From NCBI GenBank assembly GCA_902609685.1, contig CACLSR010000002.1:186001-250000 (forward strand): a stretch of DNA of 64,000 nt. Reading direction: 5' to 3'. Position 1 is the stretch's first letter. The number at the start of each line of letters is the position of its first letter. A program made the position numbers and the translations under genes. Shown piece after piece: positions 23,355 to 44,832 of the stretch. A model generated the notes under the pieces. The model was not told where the DNA came from. It worked only from the letters and a program-made list of their open reading frames with translations, and ran no database searches. This stretch comes from an uncultured Pelagibacteraceae bacterium. Lineage in GTDB: Bacteria > Pseudomonadota > Alphaproteobacteria > Pelagibacterales > Pelagibacteraceae.

Positions 23355-24728
23355 ATGAATTATATTAGTACAAGAAATAATCAGAAAAACTTTACTTTTA
23401 AAGATGTTTTCCTCAAAGGTTTGGCAGATGACGGGGGACTATTTGTTCCAAAATCAATTAAACCCTTTAAAAAGGAGGAATTAGATAATTTAAAAAATCT
23501 TAGTTACAATGATTTAGCAGCTGAAATAATTTACCCATTTATAGGAGATTTCATGTCTAAAGATGATCTAATCTCTTTGATTTCAAAATCATATTCAAAT
23601 TTCAGATCCGACGATGTTGTTAAAATATCAGATTTAGGAGACTTAAAAGTATTAGAATTGTTTCATGGACCTACACTTGCATTTAAAGATATAGCAATGC
23701 AACTAATAGGTAATTTTTATCAATATCATTTAGGTCGTGATCAAAAAAAAATTAATATAATTGTTGCAACTTCAGGCGATACGGGTGCAGCTGCCATAGA
23801 CGCTTTAAAGGGAAAAAATAATTTAAATGTTTTTGTATTACACCCCAACAATAAAATTTCACCAGTACAAAGAAGACTAATGACAATACATGAGGAGAGT
23901 AATGTATTTAACATTGCGGTGGAGGGTAATTTTGACGATTGCCAAAATTTAGTAAAAGCAATGTTTAATGACGAAAAATTTTCTAAAGTAATTAATATGT
24001 CAGGTGTAAATTCAATTAATTGGGCAAGAATTATTGCGCAATCCGTGTATTATTTTTACGCTTTCTTTAAAGTTGGAAATGGTCAACCTTTGTCCTTTTC
24101 TGTTCCAACAGGAAACTTTGGTGATATTTACGCCGGCTATTTAGCCAAAAAACTAGGTCTTCCAATTGATAAACTAATTGTAGCTACAAATAAAAATGAC
24201 ATACTGCACAGAGCGATATCTGGTGGTGATTATAGTCAAAAGAAAGTTGAGGAAACAAATACACCAAGTATGGATATACAAATTGCAAGTAATTTTGAAA
24301 GGCTTTTATACGACGTCAAAGATTGTAACTCAGAAATTACAAAGGATGTAATGGCTGAAATAAAAAATAATACTTATAAAATTGACAAAAATGACTTAGA
24401 TAAAATTAAAAAAAATTTCATATCTGAAATGCTCGATGAAAACGAAACTGTTGAAATGATAAAAACTGTCAATGATGAGCATCAGATGATAGTTGACCCG
24501 CATACTGCAGTAGGTATTGGTGCAGTGCGAAAACTAGGATTGGAAAAAAATTGTATTGTATTATCAACTGCACACCCATGCAAATTTCCAAAAGCAATAG
24601 AAGATGCAATTTCAAAAACTGAAAATTTACCAGAAAGTCTCAAGTATGTTAATGACAGAAAAGAAAAGTTTGAACTTCTGTCAAATGATATTGAAAAAGT
24701 TAAAAAATATGTAATGAATTCGATATGA
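23355..24728 (+). CDS. thrC: Threonine synthase
   Basis: Converts O-phosphohomoserine to threonine with PLP. The N-terminus MNYISTRN and ADDGGLFVP are typical. PLP Lys lies in GPTLAFKDIAMQL, the phosphate-binding loop is ATSGDTGAAAI, and the C-terminal part has DPHTAVGIGA and LSTAHPCKFP. 457 aa matches the proteobacterial long form. It is joined to the cox genes (its ATG directly follows the surf1 stop) and overlaps the peroxiredoxin gene by 4 bp. The partner homoserine kinase thrB is at 29.5 kb. Confidence 0.96.
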   Translation: MNYISTRNNQKNFTFKDVFLKGLADDGGLFVPKSIKPFKKEELDNLKNLSYNDLAAEIIYPFIGDFMSKDDLISLISKSYSNFRSDDVVKISDLGDLKVLELFHGPTLAFKDIAMQLIGNFYQYHLGRDQKKINIIVATSGDTGAAAIDALKGKNNLNVFVLHPNNKISPVQRRLMTIHEESNVFNIAVEGNFDDCQNLVKAMFNDEKFSKVINMSGVNSINWARIIAQSVYYFYAFFKVGNGQPLSFSVPTGNFGDIYAGYLAKKLGLPIDKLIVATNKNDILHRAISGGDYSQKKVEETNTPSMDIQIASNFERLLYDVKDCNSEITKDVMAEIKNNTYKIDKNDLDKIKKNFISEMLDENETVEMIKTVNDEHQMIVDPHTAVGIGAVRKLGLEKNCIVLSTAHPCKFPKAIEDAISKTENLPESLKYVNDRKEKFELLSNDIEKVKKYVMNSI

Positions 24729-25213
24729 AACTTAAAATAAAAGATCGACTACCAGATACAGAAATTTTCCAACTTATTGATGGAGAGCCTCAAAAAAGTA
24801 AATTAAGAGAAACTATTGGCAATGGTAAGGTTGTTTTGTTTGGTTTACCTGGGGCATTTACATCAACTTGCTCCAAGCTTCACTTACCAGGTTTTGTAGC
24901 AAATGCAGATAAAATAAAAGCAAAAGGAATAGAAAATATATTTTGTTTATCAGTAAATGATCCTTATGTGATGAATGGTTGGGGAGAGATTAATAATACT
25001 GGAGATAAGATTAAAATGTTATCTGATCCATATTTATTATTCACGAAAGCAATTGGAGCAGAAGTTGATCGGAATGCAAAAGGAATGGGAATTAGATCAA
25101 ATCGTTATTTAATGGTAATTGAAAATTTTATAATTGTTAATGTTCATGTTGAAAAAGAAACTAAGGAATGTGGCTTAACCTCAGCAGAAAATTTATTAAA
25201 TAATCTAATCTAG
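24725..25213 (+). CDS. Peroxiredoxin, Prx5-like
   Basis: A thiol peroxidase reducing H2O2 or alkyl hydroperoxides. The peroxidatic Cys lies in LPGAFTSTCSKLHLPGF, matching the Prx5 PGAFTPTCS pattern with Ser for Pro; FCLSVNDPYVMNGWG and the Arg region GIRSNRYLMVIE are also conserved. 162 aa is typical. It is the last gene of the cox-thrC run (ATGA overlap with thrC); a protective role near the respiratory chain is plausible. A direct repeat starts 4 bp after its stop. Confidence 0.92.
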   Translation: MKLKIKDRLPDTEIFQLIDGEPQKSKLRETIGNGKVVLFGLPGAFTSTCSKLHLPGFVANADKIKAKGIENIFCLSVNDPYVMNGWGEINNTGDKIKMLSDPYLLFTKAIGAEVDRNAKGMGIRSNRYLMVIENFIIVNVHVEKETKECGLTSAENLLNNLI

Positions 25214-25217
25214 GTAA

Positions 25218-25239
25218 GGCATTTCTGTTGCTAGGTGCC
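25218..25239 (+). repeat. Direct repeat, left copy bounding the glycan island
   Basis: A 22-bp element that begins 4 bp after the peroxiredoxin stop. It shares the core TCTGTTGCTA and the ends GGC and GTGCC with the copy at 29055-29075 in the same orientation. The ends can pair (GGCAT with GTGCC, including one G-U pair), so it could also fold as a small hairpin in RNA. Confidence 0.6.
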
Positions 25240-25273
25240 CCGAATTTTGTACCATTATTTCTTATATAAGATT

Positions 25274-26494
25274 TTAATCATAAGACTTAAAATATAAAGC
25301 TTTATTCGTAGGCGCCTGAATAGCAGCATCTATTTTCTTGGTAGAAAAGTCTCTGCCATTGCAATAGTTACACGCTGTTAAATATTCTTTCTCATAAACT
25401 AGTTTTTGTATTTGCATTTTAAGATCTTTTAAATCAATTGAACTGTCATAAAGATTTACTATATCAGTATCATCAATTGGTACAGCTTTTAGGTTACTTG
25501 CATTTGCTGAAAATGGGCATCTATATAAATTACCATGGAGCAAGCTTATGATGTCACTGTTACAACAAAAATTAAAAAGGTTTTTTAATTCATCCTCACT
25601 TCTTTTTTGAAAAGGTAAAATTCTACCTGAGTCAGTCCAAGTTTTCATTTTAGCTAAATTATATTTAATATTATTCTTATCTAATAATCTTACCAATTCA
25701 TCTGCTTTTCGCTTTGATTTATCTAGTAGAACATAATCAGAAATATCAAGAATTACTTTTGGATTTTTTAAACATTCAAAATTTTCTCCCTTAGGTATAA
25801 ATTTCACATTGGTATAAATTGCTATTGTTTCAACTTTATAATTAGATAAAAAATTTACTATTTTATACATTTCTTTATTCATAAAAGGATCTCCACCAAT
25901 TACCCTGAACTCATATAGTTGATCGACACAAGACATAAATCTATCAATTGATCTAAACAATATATCGATATTTGAATTTTTAGTTTTTGAATAATATTGC
26001 ATAAGGTTTGAGCAATCTTTACATCTTAGTGAACAATGTTCTGTTACCTGAATATCTAGAGATTTGATATAAAGTTTTCCCTCATTTTTAAAAACTTCTC
26101 TTTTAACCATAGCGTTGTAAAATGAAACCCAACGCTCAACTTTTAAAGCACTTACAGATAAATTAGACTTGGAAAAATCAGTACTATTTAATAGCAGTTC
26201 ACAATCTAGAATATTTTTAAAACCTGAGTTATTAAGTTCTTTTTTTAGAAAAACGTAGTAATTATTTGTAATAAAGATATTTGTATCTTTATCTAAATTT
26301 TTTAATTCTGAAGGTGAGAGTATTTTTAAACCCTCAAAAGTATCACCCGATCTAGCTGTATTAGAATCGCAAAAAAAATCAACTTTGATTTTATGTTGTT
26401 TAAAAGAAAAAAGACAAATTTCACCCACCACCCCAGCACCGTAAAGTACTATTGGCTTGTTTTTTTTTATTTTTGATAAAAATTCAGAAATCAT
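25274..26494 (-). CDS. Radical SAM protein with N-terminal Rossmann-like sugar-nucleotide domain
   Basis: A two-part protein of 406 aa. Residues about 1-110 form a Rossmann-type segment with VLYGAGVVGEI near residue 16 and FFCDSN, like the accessory domains found next to glycan-modifying enzymes. Residues about 145 on carry the radical SAM cluster motif C-x3-C-x2-C in EHCSLRCKDCSNLM, and RVIGGDPFMNKEM (a GGEP-like motif). A C-terminal Cys set, LYRCPFS and CNYCNGRD, suggests an extra SPASM-like iron-sulfur site. The substrate is unknown; the neighbours (glycosyltransferase, sugar methyltransferase) point to surface glycan or peptide modification. It is last in the three-gene island. Confidence 0.8.
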   Translation of the reverse strand: MISEFLSKIKKNKPIVLYGAGVVGEICLFSFKQHKIKVDFFCDSNTARSGDTFEGLKILSPSELKNLDKDTNIFITNNYYVFLKKELNNSGFKNILDCELLLNSTDFSKSNLSVSALKVERWVSFYNAMVKREVFKNEGKLYIKSLDIQVTEHCSLRCKDCSNLMQYYSKTKNSNIDILFRSIDRFMSCVDQLYEFRVIGGDPFMNKEMYKIVNFLSNYKVETIAIYTNVKFIPKGENFECLKNPKVILDISDYVLLDKSKRKADELVRLLDKNNIKYNLAKMKTWTDSGRILPFQKRSEDELKNLFNFCCNSDIISLLHGNLYRCPFSANASNLKAVPIDDTDIVNLYDSSIDLKDLKMQIQKLVYEKEYLTACNYCNGRDFSTKKIDAAIQAPTNKALYFKSYD

Positions 26495-26509
26495 AAATAC
26501 TATATCATT

Positions 26510-27727
26510 TCATATATTATTAATTTTGACAATCATACGTTTATTAAGCCTTGAATTAGCAAGATTTGAAGTGATAGCCCTCGATATTTTATTATTCATA
26601 TGACATATAAGAATTTTATAATCTTTAAAAATTTTATAATTTTTAGATAAATAAGTTTGTTTTTTAATCGTAAAATTATTAATCTTTAAATTGTGATAGT
26701 GTGGATTGTTGTCAATAATTATTTTAATCTCTTGATTAATATTTCTTAGTTTTAAAGAAATAGCTCTACCAAATCTTCCGGCACAAAATATAATAAACTT
26801 ATTTAAAGAGTTTACTTTCATTAAGTCAATTTTGTTTTGAACCTCTAGGTTTTTAGAGAAGATATGACTTAAAAAAGGATAATTTTTCTTATATTTAAGT
26901 ATTCTATTTTTTTTTAATGAAAATAAGTCGACATAAATTATTTTTTTAATATTAGCTATCATCTTCTCTATTGTTTTGTTTTTAAATTTTTTATTAATTT
27001 TTATTAAATAAAAGTAAGTTTTAAATGCATTAGTCACGCTTTTGGAAGAAGTTTTTTTCCCCTCAGAAAAGAAGTTTGTTAATCTATAGGAATATACAAA
27101 CTTATTTATAAGTAAATATTTTGGTTTTTTTGAAATTACTGTAGCTATAAAAACCCAATCTTCAAACTGAAAAAGATTTTTAAAAAAAATTTTGTTTTTT
27201 ATAAGAAATTTTCTTTTTACAATCATCTTCCACACGTTCCAGGAAGAAAAATTATTATTTATTTTCATCAAAGAATCACTAAATGAATTGGTAGATTTAT
27301 CTATTAAGTTTTTATTATATACTTTATTTAATTTCCTTTTGTTTATTTCACTATAAAATAAAAAAATATCTTTTGATTGATTTTTTAAAATTATTTCATA
27401 AACTTTTCTAAAAGCATTTATTTGAATAAAATCGTCAGCATCTACAAAAAAAATATATTCACCTTTAGATTTTTTAATACCCAAATTCCTTGCTAAAGAA
27501 ACTCCACAATTTTTTTTTGTTTTGAAAATTTTTAAATTAGTATTTTTTTTTTTCCATTTATTTAAAATTTTTAAGGAATTATCAGATGAATAATCGTTGA
27601 TGGCTAATACTTCAAATTGCTGATCAAATTTATAATACTTACTCAACTTATAAATTGAGTCTAAACATGAGTTTAAATATTTTTCTTTATTATACACTGG
27701 TATTATAAAAGAAATTTTTATAGACAT
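26510..27727 (-). CDS. Family 2 glycosyltransferase with C-terminal Rossmann-like domain
   Basis: Predicted inverting GT-A transferase acting on a surface polysaccharide or glycolipid. The N-terminal domain has ISFIIPVYNKEKYL, NDYSSDNSL and the metal-binding DADDF motif within YIFFVDADDF. The C-terminal part shows FIIFCAGRFGRAISL and a following IIDNNPHY, a Rossmann segment resembling the N-terminus of the adjacent radical SAM protein. An upstream in-frame TTG (27793) would add 22 residues with no family match, so the ATG at 27727 is preferred, giving 405 aa. The 150-bp gap upstream holds an element similar to that before the methyltransferase gene. Confidence 0.87.
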   Translation of the reverse strand: MSIKISFIIPVYNKEKYLNSCLDSIYKLSKYYKFDQQFEVLAINDYSSDNSLKILNKWKKKNTNLKIFKTKKNCGVSLARNLGIKKSKGEYIFFVDADDFIQINAFRKVYEIILKNQSKDIFLFYSEINKRKLNKVYNKNLIDKSTNSFSDSLMKINNNFSSWNVWKMIVKRKFLIKNKIFFKNLFQFEDWVFIATVISKKPKYLLINKFVYSYRLTNFFSEGKKTSSKSVTNAFKTYFYLIKINKKFKNKTIEKMIANIKKIIYVDLFSLKKNRILKYKKNYPFLSHIFSKNLEVQNKIDLMKVNSLNKFIIFCAGRFGRAISLKLRNINQEIKIIIDNNPHYHNLKINNFTIKKQTYLSKNYKIFKDYKILICHMNNKISRAITSNLANSRLNKRMIVKINNI

Positions 27728-27878
27728 TTTGTATTCAAATGTTGCAAACCTATTAATTTTTGTTTTATAACATGAGGGGTACTCTTTTGCCAAATGACTC
27801 GGTCTATTTGTTCCTAGTTTTTACACACTAAAATAAAAAAACCAATACATTTTAATATAAAACATAGTGTCATTGTTG

Positions 27879-28949
27879 TTAATTAGAAGTTAAATATATT
27901 AATTTTTTTTTATAAACATCTATTAAGCTATTTTTCCAAGAAACGTTTAGTTTATTATCAAAAAAGTTATTTAATTCTTCGGGATTAAAAGTTGTTTTCA
28001 AATCAAAATTATCATACGAAATTAATGATATTTCTTTAGTTTTAAATTTTTTAATAAACTTGACATAATTGTAAATTACTGTTTTAGGCATTTCAACAAA
28101 ACTGGCAGCATTATGAAAATGATCTATTTCAGTTTCTACTTTTTCTATTAACCATGGTGGAATACAAAAAATTTCCAATTCGTTATTTTTAGAAAAATTA
28201 ATCTTGTCTAAATTTCTTAATTCTAGATAGTCTTTGACTTTTTCTTTATAATGATGCCTCAAATATTCTGTACCAACATAAATATTTGGAACTGCATCTA
28301 AATAAAGAATTTTTTTTATATTAGGGAAATTTGTGATTAAAAAATGTATATTTGTTCCAAATCCTCCTCCAATTTCAAAAAAACTTGTGATATTTTCAAA
28401 TTTAAAAGATTTAGATAATTTATCAATCCTATCTGCTATTGCCAAGTAATGACATGAGTAATTTTTATTTAAATATTCAAATGATTGAACACATCCAAAA
28501 TCAGTTGTATTCTTAAATTTAAATTTGTTTATTAAATTTTGAACATTTTGATTATTTTTATAGACGATTGCTTGGTTTTTAATAAATAAATCGAGGTAAT
28601 CTTTTGTTATTTTTAATTGTCCATTGAAAATTTTGTTTAATACAGGTAAGGAAAATAATTTTCCAACAATTCTTCCTTTAATATTGAATTCATTTCTAAT
28701 ATCTAAAACCAAGTTGTCAGCAAAAGAGGTTCCAATCCCGGCGGTTGTTCCTCTAAAATCTGCGAGACCTTTTTTTTTTATTTCAAGTATTGCTCTACTA
28801 TTTTTGTAATCCCAGTATGGACCAGATGAGTAAAGCGTTTTATCAATTTTTTTTTCATCTTTTATCAATTCATTAAGAAGCATAACATTAATAATCTTTA
28901 AAGGGGGCGTTTTGTTGACAGATGCCCTGAACTTTGTATCATTTTTCAT
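27879..28949 (-). CDS. Putative sugar O-methyltransferase
   Basis: A 356-residue protein that matches the pattern of the putative sugar O-methyltransferase family found in polysaccharide clusters. YWDYKNSRAILEI and the GIGTSFADN segment are seen in the N-terminal half, and a SAM-binding loop FFEIGGGFGTNIHFL follows near residue 195, then YLDAVPNIYVGTEYL. It contains no signal peptide or membrane span. It is the first gene of the island, with a 131-bp intergenic region before it. Sugar methylation is inferred from family resemblance and the neighbouring glycosyltransferase. Confidence 0.77.
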   Translation of the reverse strand: MKNDTKFRASVNKTPPLKIINVMLLNELIKDEKKIDKTLYSSGPYWDYKNSRAILEIKKKGLADFRGTTAGIGTSFADNLVLDIRNEFNIKGRIVGKLFSLPVLNKIFNGQLKITKDYLDLFIKNQAIVYKNNQNVQNLINKFKFKNTTDFGCVQSFEYLNKNYSCHYLAIADRIDKLSKSFKFENITSFFEIGGGFGTNIHFLITNFPNIKKILYLDAVPNIYVGTEYLRHHYKEKVKDYLELRNLDKINFSKNNELEIFCIPPWLIEKVETEIDHFHNAASFVEMPKTVIYNYVKFIKKFKTKEISLISYDNFDLKTTFNPEELNNFFDNKLNVSWKNSLIDVYKKKLIYLTSN

Positions 28950-29054
28950 GAGTAATTTAAATTGAAAATCAAGACTTGGTACTCAAATGACACCATCATG
29001 ACGCCTACAAATATAAAAGTAAATATTTTAAAATGATTGTATAGTATTTTTAGA

Positions 29055-29075
29055 GGCGTTCTGTTGCTAAGTGCC
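29055..29075 (+). repeat. Direct repeat, right copy bounding the glycan island
   Basis: A 21-bp element 5 bp beyond the rnhA stop codon (rnhA is on the other strand). It is the same on the plus strand as the copy at 25218-25239 apart from one gap and two substitutions, sharing TCTGTTGCTA and GTGCC. The ends extend to AGGC/GCCT and can pair. The rest of the 131-bp gap (28950-29080) has no recognised gene; it holds a GGTACTC...AAATGAC element close to the methyltransferase start that recurs with a 7-bp insertion at about 27777. Confidence 0.6.
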
Positions 29076-29080
29076 TTTAA

Positions 29081-29503
29081 CTATAAGTTAGCAGCATCTT
29101 TAGCGAGTAAATCTACCTCATTATTTAATTGATCATTTGAATGGGCTTTTACCCAGTTCCAACTTATTTCAAACTCATTATTTAGTAGATCTAATTCTGT
29201 CCAAAGTGCTTTATTGCTCACTTCTTTTCTGTTTGCAGTTTTCCATCCATTTTTTTTCCAATTGTGTATCCACTCTGTTATCCCAGACTTTACGTATTTA
29301 GAGTCTGTAAAAATTTGAACTTTGCTTCCTTTTGGAATTTTTTTAAGGGCTTGTATAGGTGCTAATAATTCCATTTGATTATTTGTCGTATCTTTTTTAC
29401 TTCCTTTGAGTTCAGTTTTTTCTCCGTCATTTAATATTATTGCTGCCCAACCACCATTGCCTGGATTACCAAGACATGAACCATCAGTATAAATTTTAAT
29501 CAT
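29081..29503 (-). CDS. rnhA: Ribonuclease HI
   Basis: Degrades the RNA strand of RNA-DNA hybrids. The four catalytic acidic residues are visible: D7 in YTDGSCLGNPG, E45 in NNQMELLAP, D67 in IFTDSKYV and D131 near the end in NNEVDLLAKDA, with the conserved His in VKAHSNDQ. 140 aa is slightly short, as is usual for compact bacterial forms. Start overlaps the thrB stop by one base. Confidence 0.97.
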   Translation of the reverse strand: MIKIYTDGSCLGNPGNGGWAAIILNDGEKTELKGSKKDTTNNQMELLAPIQALKKIPKGSKVQIFTDSKYVKSGITEWIHNWKKNGWKTANRKEVSNKALWTELDLLNNEFEISWNWVKAHSNDQLNNEVDLLAKDAANL

Positions 29504-43699: not shown

Positions 43700-44766
43700 T
43701 TTTTTGAAATTAATCTTTGTCTTAAATTATCTATAGGCACTATTTGCCCATTAAGATTATAATGCCAATAAGTCCAGCCATTACAACTTTCTGCTCCCAA
43801 TATTGATGCAGCTACCTTGTGAATAGAGCCCTCTTTTTTGGCATGTTTTATACTTCCATCAGCCATAATTTTTGCACTGATTTTCTTTTTATTATCAAAA
43901 ATAGTAGTGCCTGGTTTAATTATTCCTAATTCAACTAATGACCCAAAAGGTATTCTTGGCTTAGATCTACCATTTTGCAAAGTATCTAAATAATCATCTT
44001 CTATAGGTTTTGTATTTTTTAGTCGTTGTTCAGCTGCCTTATAATAGGTTTTTTCTTTTTCAATTCCGTAATACTTTCTACCTAATTTTTTTGCAACTGT
44101 TGCTGTTGTTCCTGATCCTAAAAAAGGATCTAAAACTAAATCATTTTTATTTGAGGTTGCTAATAAAATTCTGTGAAGTAGAGCCTCAGGTTTTTGAGTA
44201 GAATGTACTTTTTTGCCATTCCTTTTAAGTCTCTCAGAACCATTACAAATCGGCAACTCCCAGTTTGATCTCATTTGAAGATCATCATTTAAACATTTTA
44301 AGGATTGATAATTAAAAGTGTATTTTGATTTTTCTGATTTTGATGCCCAAATCAATGTTTCATGAGCATTAGTAAAACGTGTCCCTCTGAAATTTGGCAT
44401 AGGATTTTTTTTATTCCAGATGACGTCATTTAAAATCCAAAAACCTAAATTTTGAATAGCAGTGCCAACTCTAAAGATGTTATGGTAACTGCCAATCACC
44501 CAAATAGCTCCATTTTTTTTCAAAATTCTTTTACATTCCGTTAACCACGAGTAGGTAAATTCATCATACTTTTTAAAATTTTCAAATTGATCCCATTTAT
44601 CATTGACTGCATTTACCTTAGACCTATCGGGTCGTATAAGCTCATTCCTTAACTGTAAGTTGTAAGGAGGGTCAGCAAAAATTAAATCAAAAGTCTCACT
44701 GGGGATTTTTTTAAGTTCCCTTAAACTATCTCCATTTATTAATTTATTTTTAAAGTCCAAATTCAT
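43696..44766 (-). CDS. ccrM: CcrM-type adenine DNA methyltransferase (GANTC)
   Basis: Adds N6-methyl to adenine, expected at GANTC as in other alphaproteobacteria. The catalytic DPPY lies in LIFADPPYNLQL, the SAM loop in LDPFLGSGTTATVAKKLG, and RNGKKVHSTQKPEALL is also typical. The C-terminal portion, IPFGSLVELGIIKPGT and SCNGWTYWHYN, is the CcrM-specific tail. The ATG at 44766 gives 356 aa, close to Caulobacter CcrM; a TTG at 44808 would add residues with no match. Three GANTC sites lie upstream. It is a cell-cycle methylase with no cognate restriction gene visible. Confidence 0.93.
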   Translation of the reverse strand: MNLDFKNKLINGDSLRELKKIPSETFDLIFADPPYNLQLRNELIRPDRSKVNAVNDKWDQFENFKKYDEFTYSWLTECKRILKKNGAIWVIGSYHNIFRVGTAIQNLGFWILNDVIWNKKNPMPNFRGTRFTNAHETLIWASKSEKSKYTFNYQSLKCLNDDLQMRSNWELPICNGSERLKRNGKKVHSTQKPEALLHRILLATSNKNDLVLDPFLGSGTTATVAKKLGRKYYGIEKEKTYYKAAEQRLKNTKPIEDDYLDTLQNGRSKPRIPFGSLVELGIIKPGTTIFDNKKKISAKIMADGSIKHAKKEGSIHKVAASILGAESCNGWTYWHYNLNGQIVPIDNLRQRLISKN

Positions 44767-44783
44767 TTTATAAAAATAAATTA

Positions 44784-44832
44784 GACTCCAAAAAGATTCT
44801 TGGGTCAACCTAGGATTGAATTATTTGGATTC
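44784..44832 (-). promoter_or_regulatory. Cluster of three GANTC sites in the ccrM leader
   Basis: The 119-bp gap 44767-44885 between rnhB and ccrM contains GANTC at 44784-44788 (GACTC), 44795-44799 (GATTC) and 44828-44832 (GATTC). At the composition of this genome roughly one site per 400 bp would be expected. In Caulobacter, GANTC sites near the ccrM promoter tie its expression to methylation state. The gap also holds GTTTC and GAAAC arms around 44871-44885. Confidence 0.6.

Follow-up and report, generated by a model that had tools for sequence, protein, structure and literature searches.

Two tandem integrase-less cassettes bounded by copies of the tmRNA 3′ hairpin between rnhA and prx in a Pelagibacteraceae genome

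SAR11 bacteria are among the most abundant in the ocean, and their small, streamlined genomes hold many small gene insertions for which we found no mechanism in the literature. One such insertion lies in a stretch of 64,000 nucleotides from an uncultured Pelagibacteraceae bacterium (contig CACLSR010000002.1, positions 186,001 to 250,000; hereafter the window), where three genes for a sugar methyltransferase, a GT2 glycosyltransferase and a radical S-adenosylmethionine (radical SAM) protein separate the peroxiredoxin gene prx from rnhA. This locus raises the question of how these genes arrived there. A first-pass annotation, made from the sequence alone, had noticed short direct repeats at both edges of the interval and read it as a variable cassette inserted by recombination between them. 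We consider it likely that the interval consists of two tandem integrase-less units, which conservative site-specific recombination placed at one of several dispersed sites derived from the transfer-messenger RNA (tmRNA) gene, probably through a satellite integrase acting in trans.

The positions, lengths and common orientation of the two repeats, as well as their distances from the stop codons of prx and rnhA, proved to be as first described (Table 1). The pattern TCTGTTGCTARGTGCC has two exact occurrences in the window, and the 16-mer shared by both copies, allowing up to three mismatches, again found only these two, against a chance expectation of 0.25. When the search was extended to the 1.19-Mb genome, as the first-pass annotation had proposed, three matches with at most two mismatches were obtained, namely copies 1 and 2 and one further match in the tmRNA gene, whose 3′ hairpin had previously gone unnoticed; the reversed pattern gave no match in the same genome under the same threshold. 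Both outer copies are confirmed; a third core copy inside the interval had been overlooked, so that the interval comprises two tandem units. Read along the minus strand, the order is rnhA, copy 2, a stretch of 149 bp, copy 3, the methyltransferase, GT2 and radical SAM genes, copy 1 and the convergent prx. The difference between the 22-bp and the 21-bp copy, first described as one gap, is also real, and it exists because copy 1 has a host-type and copy 2 an element-type right arm, rather than reflecting noise.

The repeat, read along the minus strand, is the 3′-terminal hairpin (25 nt) on the coding piece of the alphaproteobacterial tmRNA, a two-piece molecule; its core is GGGGCACCTGGCAACAGAACGCCCC. 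The tmRNA at locus L003 scored 225 bits against the Rfam family alpha_tmRNA (RF01849), in which CACCTGGCAACAGAA is the conserved 3′ end, and ARAGORN agreed on the assignment, with the tag ANESYAIAA. The direct repeats are thus a fragment of an RNA gene, as expected of a genomic island at such a gene, while the site in the window is the rnhA/prx junction and not the tmRNA gene itself, at which other cassettes do sit. The core was present in 240 of 300 genomes of the genus, a table in which the reversed control pattern had no match. In an order-wide sample, at least two copies were found in 44 of 94 Pelagibacteraceae genomes (35 of 76 from the genus and 9 of 18 from other genera), compared with none of the 53 sister-family genomes, which are on average less complete and contain at most one copy, presumably that of the tmRNA. 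Across SAR11, cores occur at the tmRNA gene, at rnhA/prx, at pnp/fabI and at other gene ends, in one orientation per locus. In genome G028, the tmRNA has the variant core GGGGCACCGGGTAACAGAACGCCCC, which recurs in the cassette cores of this genome, with one further change in two of the five.

To compare junctions, 80 named SAR11 loci were retrieved by rnhA. Exactly one core is present in 24 empty junctions, including those of close relatives, and there it takes up the spacer, about 30 bp long, that separates rnhA from prx (or thrC), just as had been predicted for strains lacking the genes. Eight junctions are occupied with a core at both ends, ten have only the rnhA-side core, one has only the far core, and two are of other kinds; junction cores share the orientation of rnhA. 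At the same place in other genomes, unrelated cargo lies between at least two cores, and the three genes of the window were found in none of the 80 loci within the stretch covered. Homologues of the radical SAM protein occur in 4 of 349 genomes, the other three (36–46% identity) at other loci, where they adjoin glycosyltransferase or other sugar genes. Empty sites, differing cargo and sporadic genes together support the idea of a variable cassette.

Could the repeats simply be RNA 3′-end hairpins of convergent genes, serving termination or stability like the tmRNA tail, with their position at cassette ends incidental? The tmRNA core forms a hairpin closed by a GNRA loop (GGGGC-CUG-GCAA-CAG-GCCCC), the form at rnhA keeps its pairing as GGGCA/UGCCC, the examined cores at conserved genes follow the gene in sense, and an unrelated hairpin-like sequence stands at the same junction in other genomes. 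However, this explanation accounts neither for one core in empty sites versus at least two in filled ones, nor for the polar exchange of arms and the shared element ends described below, and 24 junctions are wholly coreless. We therefore judge it very unlikely, and a role as terminator only is ruled out as sufficient by the empty and filled sites and the arm exchange; the core may have an RNA 3′-end role in addition to that of a recombination site. At the rnhA/prx junctions of L115, L143, L150, L159 and L180, the sequence in place of the tmRNA core is of the AGCGC..GCGC type.

The arms of the cores carry the footprint of a crossover. Empty rnhA/prx sites read ..CAACAGAA-CTGCCCTA with a CTGCCC-type arm in 19 of 22 prx-type empty sites, whereas element and tmRNA cores read ..CAACAGAA-CGCCCCTT with a CGCCCC-type arm. 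Few loci are informative for arm polarity; among them, the rnhA-side core of occupied sites is element-type (CGCC) in all five callable cases (L112, L125, L129, L179 and L188), and the prx-side core has a host-type (T-type) arm in six of seven, with L188 as the exception. The window follows the same rule, with AACGCC in copy 2 and AAATGCC in copy 1. The pattern is as predicted by a reciprocal crossover within GGCACCTGGCAACAGAA.

A single crossover in the core would leave the identical footprint without any dedicated recombinase, for instance if short-homology recombination between identical 3′ hairpins swapped the intervening DNA after natural transformation. The captured-gene look of the 342-bp SCPMM gene (L069) and of the methyltransferase-like gene of L160, each with its own downstream core, would suit such a process. 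Nevertheless, we find it improbable, as 25 bp is short for RecA, homologous recombination needs no specific attP-like arms such as those common to unrelated cargo, and integrase genes lie between cores in G161 and after a core in G242. At L160:7783 and L032:788, a stretch of about 40 nt similar to the tmRNA 3′ end lies between a methyltransferase-like gene and the core, which suggests capture from the tmRNA locus.

Of the 177 distinct core sites collected, 33 non-tmRNA sites have a ACAAAGTT-type sequence adjoining the core. The commonest end class, TTTTCAATTCAAATTATTCGCGAATAATGKTACAAAGTTCGG, is found on unrelated cargo at four loci, namely the tmRNA gene, rnhA, pnp/fabI and the site after the SCPMM gene, and both unit ends in the window match this class above every shuffle (Table 1). 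The stretch between the methyltransferase and GT2 genes was considered as a further decayed end, and it scored no better than shuffles. Locus L192 (G161) is a complete integrase-bearing element bounded by two cores. Its parts are, in order, the tmRNA core, a tyrosine integrase (343 aa), small genes, a 733-aa primase-like protein, the end ..AGAAACAAAGTTCGG and the second core, downstream of which lie a two-gene cassette and a third core. PHROGs matches support its integrase (9e-56) and DNA primase (8e-25). In L193 (G242), an integrase 52% identical to that of L192 directly follows the tmRNA core, and G205 holds a 71-aa integrase relic a few kb from the tmRNA gene. Since the arms are reciprocally exchanged, attP-like ends are shared and rare complete elements carry an integrase, the recombination between short repeats that was first proposed is better described as site-specific recombination at a tmRNA-derived core used at several loci. 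More distant integrases, sharing about 30% identity with the one at the tmRNA gene, occur in L197–L201 near tRNA-Met (or tRNA-Cys/Asn/Arg); some of these loci share satellite-like genes, and they perhaps represent a wider satellite family in SAR11.

In the mechanism that we propose, the bacterial attachment site (attB) would be a copy of the 25-nt tmRNA hairpin directly past the rnhA stop codon. A circular element with the same core as its own attachment site (attP) would recombine within GGCACCTGGCAACAGAA and leave one core at each end, and a second recombination event would yield the tandem of unit A (149 bp) and unit B (3.7 kb). The units, which carry no recombinase, keep an attP-like arm at the right end, with ..TACAAARTTCRG beside the core and, in unit A, also repeated GGCGTCA-like boxes farther away. 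Mobilisation in trans would most likely depend on a phage-type tyrosine integrase, as in the rare elements at the tmRNA gene (G161 and G242).

A different enzyme might act on the cores, however. Pelagibacteraceae genomes contain a resident single-copy tyrosine recombinase of about 317–325 aa in a conserved neighbourhood, and if so, the system would function like a chromosomal integron whose integrase is immobile. Its homologue is present in 85 of 94 Pelagibacteraceae genomes and 0 of 53 of the sister family, the same split as for multi-copy cores, and the window's genome has it too (G000:C1:11005-11958). As it falls far below every NCBIfam Xer cut-off (73 vs 330 bits for XerD), it does not qualify as an ordinary XerC or XerD. 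Against this stands that it is unlinked to any core, that its neighbourhood is conserved rather than variable between two genomes (L270; G297, L271), that the match in distribution is confounded with ancestry as only two families were compared, that it may just be the chromosome-dimer recombinase of the lineage, and that the G161 and G242 elements carry their own, different integrase right beside the core. We regard the resident enzyme as a rather doubtful candidate; our best guess is that a satellite integrase acting in trans moved the window's cassette. An IMES-2 RNA motif (L270:10519-10658, minus strand, 143 bits) lies immediately upstream of the gene for the resident recombinase in this genome.

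Several observations weigh against insertion by a satellite integrase in trans. Integrase relatives with more than 50% identity were found in only 2 of 399 genomes, there is none in the window's genome, whose single resident recombinase is unrelated, and none of the 38 cassettes listed contains an integrase. Many cassettes have no conserved arm. Among the 80 junctions, 24 are empty without a core, and 11 are occupied with no core at either end, some with internal cores, so that cores decay or insertions use other routes; loss of the core is frequent. Where examined, cores lie in sense behind a gene, a placement that is compatible with an RNA role too. Finally, the genomes are mostly single-amplified and metagenome-assembled genomes and mostly partial, and no excised circle was seen.

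Phages were also considered. In nine contigs from IMG/VR (L080–L088), the core lies within phage-borne tmRNA genes in eight, the ninth (L083) being left unassigned by ARAGORN, and the reading of the core as a phage attP was rejected. These genes are of the two-piece alphaproteobacterial type with the same 3′ hairpin, and most have the tag ADENLALAA. IMG/VR searches with the element end and the integrase gave no match. Prophage integrases were likewise set aside as drivers, as the additional tyrosine recombinases that were looked at in G056 and G039 sit in coreless phage-like gene sets.

Cassettes elsewhere carry varied cargo, including DNA methyltransferases (L041 and L022), an MrcB_N/NO VEIN protein (L170), a UvrD/GajB-like helicase (L179), a trypsin-like protease (L120) and, by reading of open reading frames (ORFs), peroxiredoxin-like, cold-shock-like and many small secreted-looking proteins. 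A 123-aa cassette ('MSPKDLVLQGYKLF..') is found at two separate loci, L058 and L145, as expected of mobile units. In the region G000:C3:20894 (L003, L109), sulfatase-like and FkbM-like genes come after the tmRNA of the window's genome, with no second core; the same sulfatase-like gene forms a class-A cassette at the tmRNA gene with both cores in L075, and the former region therefore looks like a decayed cassette. Taken more broadly, it is an evenly balanced prospect that an integron-like system spans the Pelagibacteraceae, in which the tmRNA 3′ hairpin is a portable recombination site behind conserved genes (tmRNA, rnhA, pnp and others), integrase-less cassettes accumulate in tandem, neighbouring chromosomal genes can be captured, rare satellite integrases in trans or the resident recombinase move them, and much of the small-scale gene turnover of SAR11 results.

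In the window, the assignment of the three genes as sugar methyltransferase, GT2 and radical SAM held, and the units indeed contain no integrase. All three make up unit B and probably concern surface glycans, which the cassette may alter. Element A contains no gene and is a decayed or miniature element. The ATG at 28883 is the probable start of the methyltransferase, as copy 3 falls inside the longer ORF. No sequence match to the radical SAM protein was found in the PDB. Elsewhere in the window, positions 44763-44832 (minus strand) match the bablM sRNA family with 79 bits.

Table 1. Features of the rnhA/prx interval (window positions).
Feature	Position	Strand	Details
prx	24725..25213	+	redoxin family; conserved flank of the integration site
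Core copy 1, prx side	25218..25239	-	22 bp, GGCATTTCTGTTGCTAGGTGCC; 4 bp past prx stop; element-B left half and host-type right arm (..AAATGCC, then TTACCTAGATTAG)
Element B right end	25240..25300	-	attP-like arm, ..AATAATGGTACAAAATTCGG; class A; alignment score 55, shuffle maximum 41
Radical SAM protein	25274..26494	-	cargo; 406 aa; N-terminal NeuD/Rex-like nucleotide-binding stretch
GT2 glycosyltransferase	26510..27727	-	cargo; ATG at 27727; longer TTG ORF to 27793
Sugar O-methyltransferase	27879..28883	-	cargo; NanM-type (TIGR04371); longer ORF to 28949 overlaps copy 3
Core copy 3, internal	28906..28926	-	GGCGTTTTGTTGACAGATGCC; element-A/element-B boundary; element-type right arm (CGCCCC)
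Element A body	28927..29054	-	no gene; 149 bp core to core
Element A right end	28927..29010	-	direct repeats GGCGTCATGATGGTGTCATTTGA, plus TTTTCAATTTAAATTACTCATGAAAAATGATACAAAGTTCAG; class A; alignment score 82, shuffle maximum 40
Core copy 2, rnhA side	29055..29075	-	21 bp, GGCGTTCTGTTGCTAAGTGCC; 5 bp from rnhA stop; host left flank and element-type right arm (AACGCC)
rnhA	29081..29503	-	conserved flank of the integration site

Related SAR11 hold different cassettes or none at this site and at a few other fixed ones, which looks like lineage-wide gene swapping. As the 25-nt site can be read in any genome or metagenome, this turnover becomes countable by cassette, landing site and cargo. The cargo that can be listed in this way covers sugar modification, DNA methyltransferases and restriction- and helicase-like defence genes, suggesting a route by which glycan and phage-defence genes spread in cells without obvious mobile elements.

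The literature searched, mostly open-access, contained no description of a tmRNA-core system, which is weak evidence of novelty, and SAR11 islands have been described without one (PMC7318151). Islander-type genomic islands depend on an integrase and insert at tmRNA or tRNA genes (PMC4383910; for tmRNA islands also PMC11915505). There, as here, the attP holds a fragment of the target RNA gene that restores the gene while the displaced fragment marks the far end, and L192 and L193 carry a tyrosine integrase as well. In contrast, most SAR11 units are integrase-less and 0.15–5 kb long, their cores have spread to several protein-gene ends, and they target a 3′ hairpin, on the coding piece of a tmRNA that is permuted and made of two pieces. 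The additive flexible genomic island fGI-2 of 'Ca. Methylopumilus' contains recurring repeats of the last 20 nt of tRNA-Lys (PMC10872708), and it resembles the SAR11 system in its streamlined aquatic host, additive arrays, mostly unknown genes and RNA-gene 3′ fragments as repeats. SAR11 differs in the use of tmRNA instead of tRNA-Lys, in multiple dispersed sites and short units, and in the evidence from empty sites and arm exchange.

Integron cassettes and clusters of attC sites lacking an integrase (CALIN) are likewise arrays of small gene cassettes with hairpin-forming direct repeats between them, presumably mobilised in trans, whereas the SAR11 sites are dispersed. An attC identity of the core is ruled out by the missing boxes (RYYYAAC/GTTRRRY), none of which was found on either strand of the core, and the sole tyrosine recombinase of the window's genome (G000) scores 34 bits against the 265-bit cut-off for integron integrases; hypervariable regions without attC have been reported for SAR11 (Wilhelm et al. 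2007, PMC2217521). With phage satellites (such as phage-inducible chromosomal islands, PICI-like) and tycheposons, the complete element L192 shares an integrase, a primase-like protein and small genes, and distant relatives of its integrase are found at tRNA-Met in other SAR11 genomes (L198–L201). The units of the window, unlike these, hold cargo only and sit at a protein-gene end. Also related are the 'polymorphic gene indels' of SAR11, for which no mechanism was given (Wilhelm et al. 2007, PMC2217521). They too are small variable insertions in otherwise conserved core regions, and for part of them the tmRNA-core cassettes offer a candidate mechanism.

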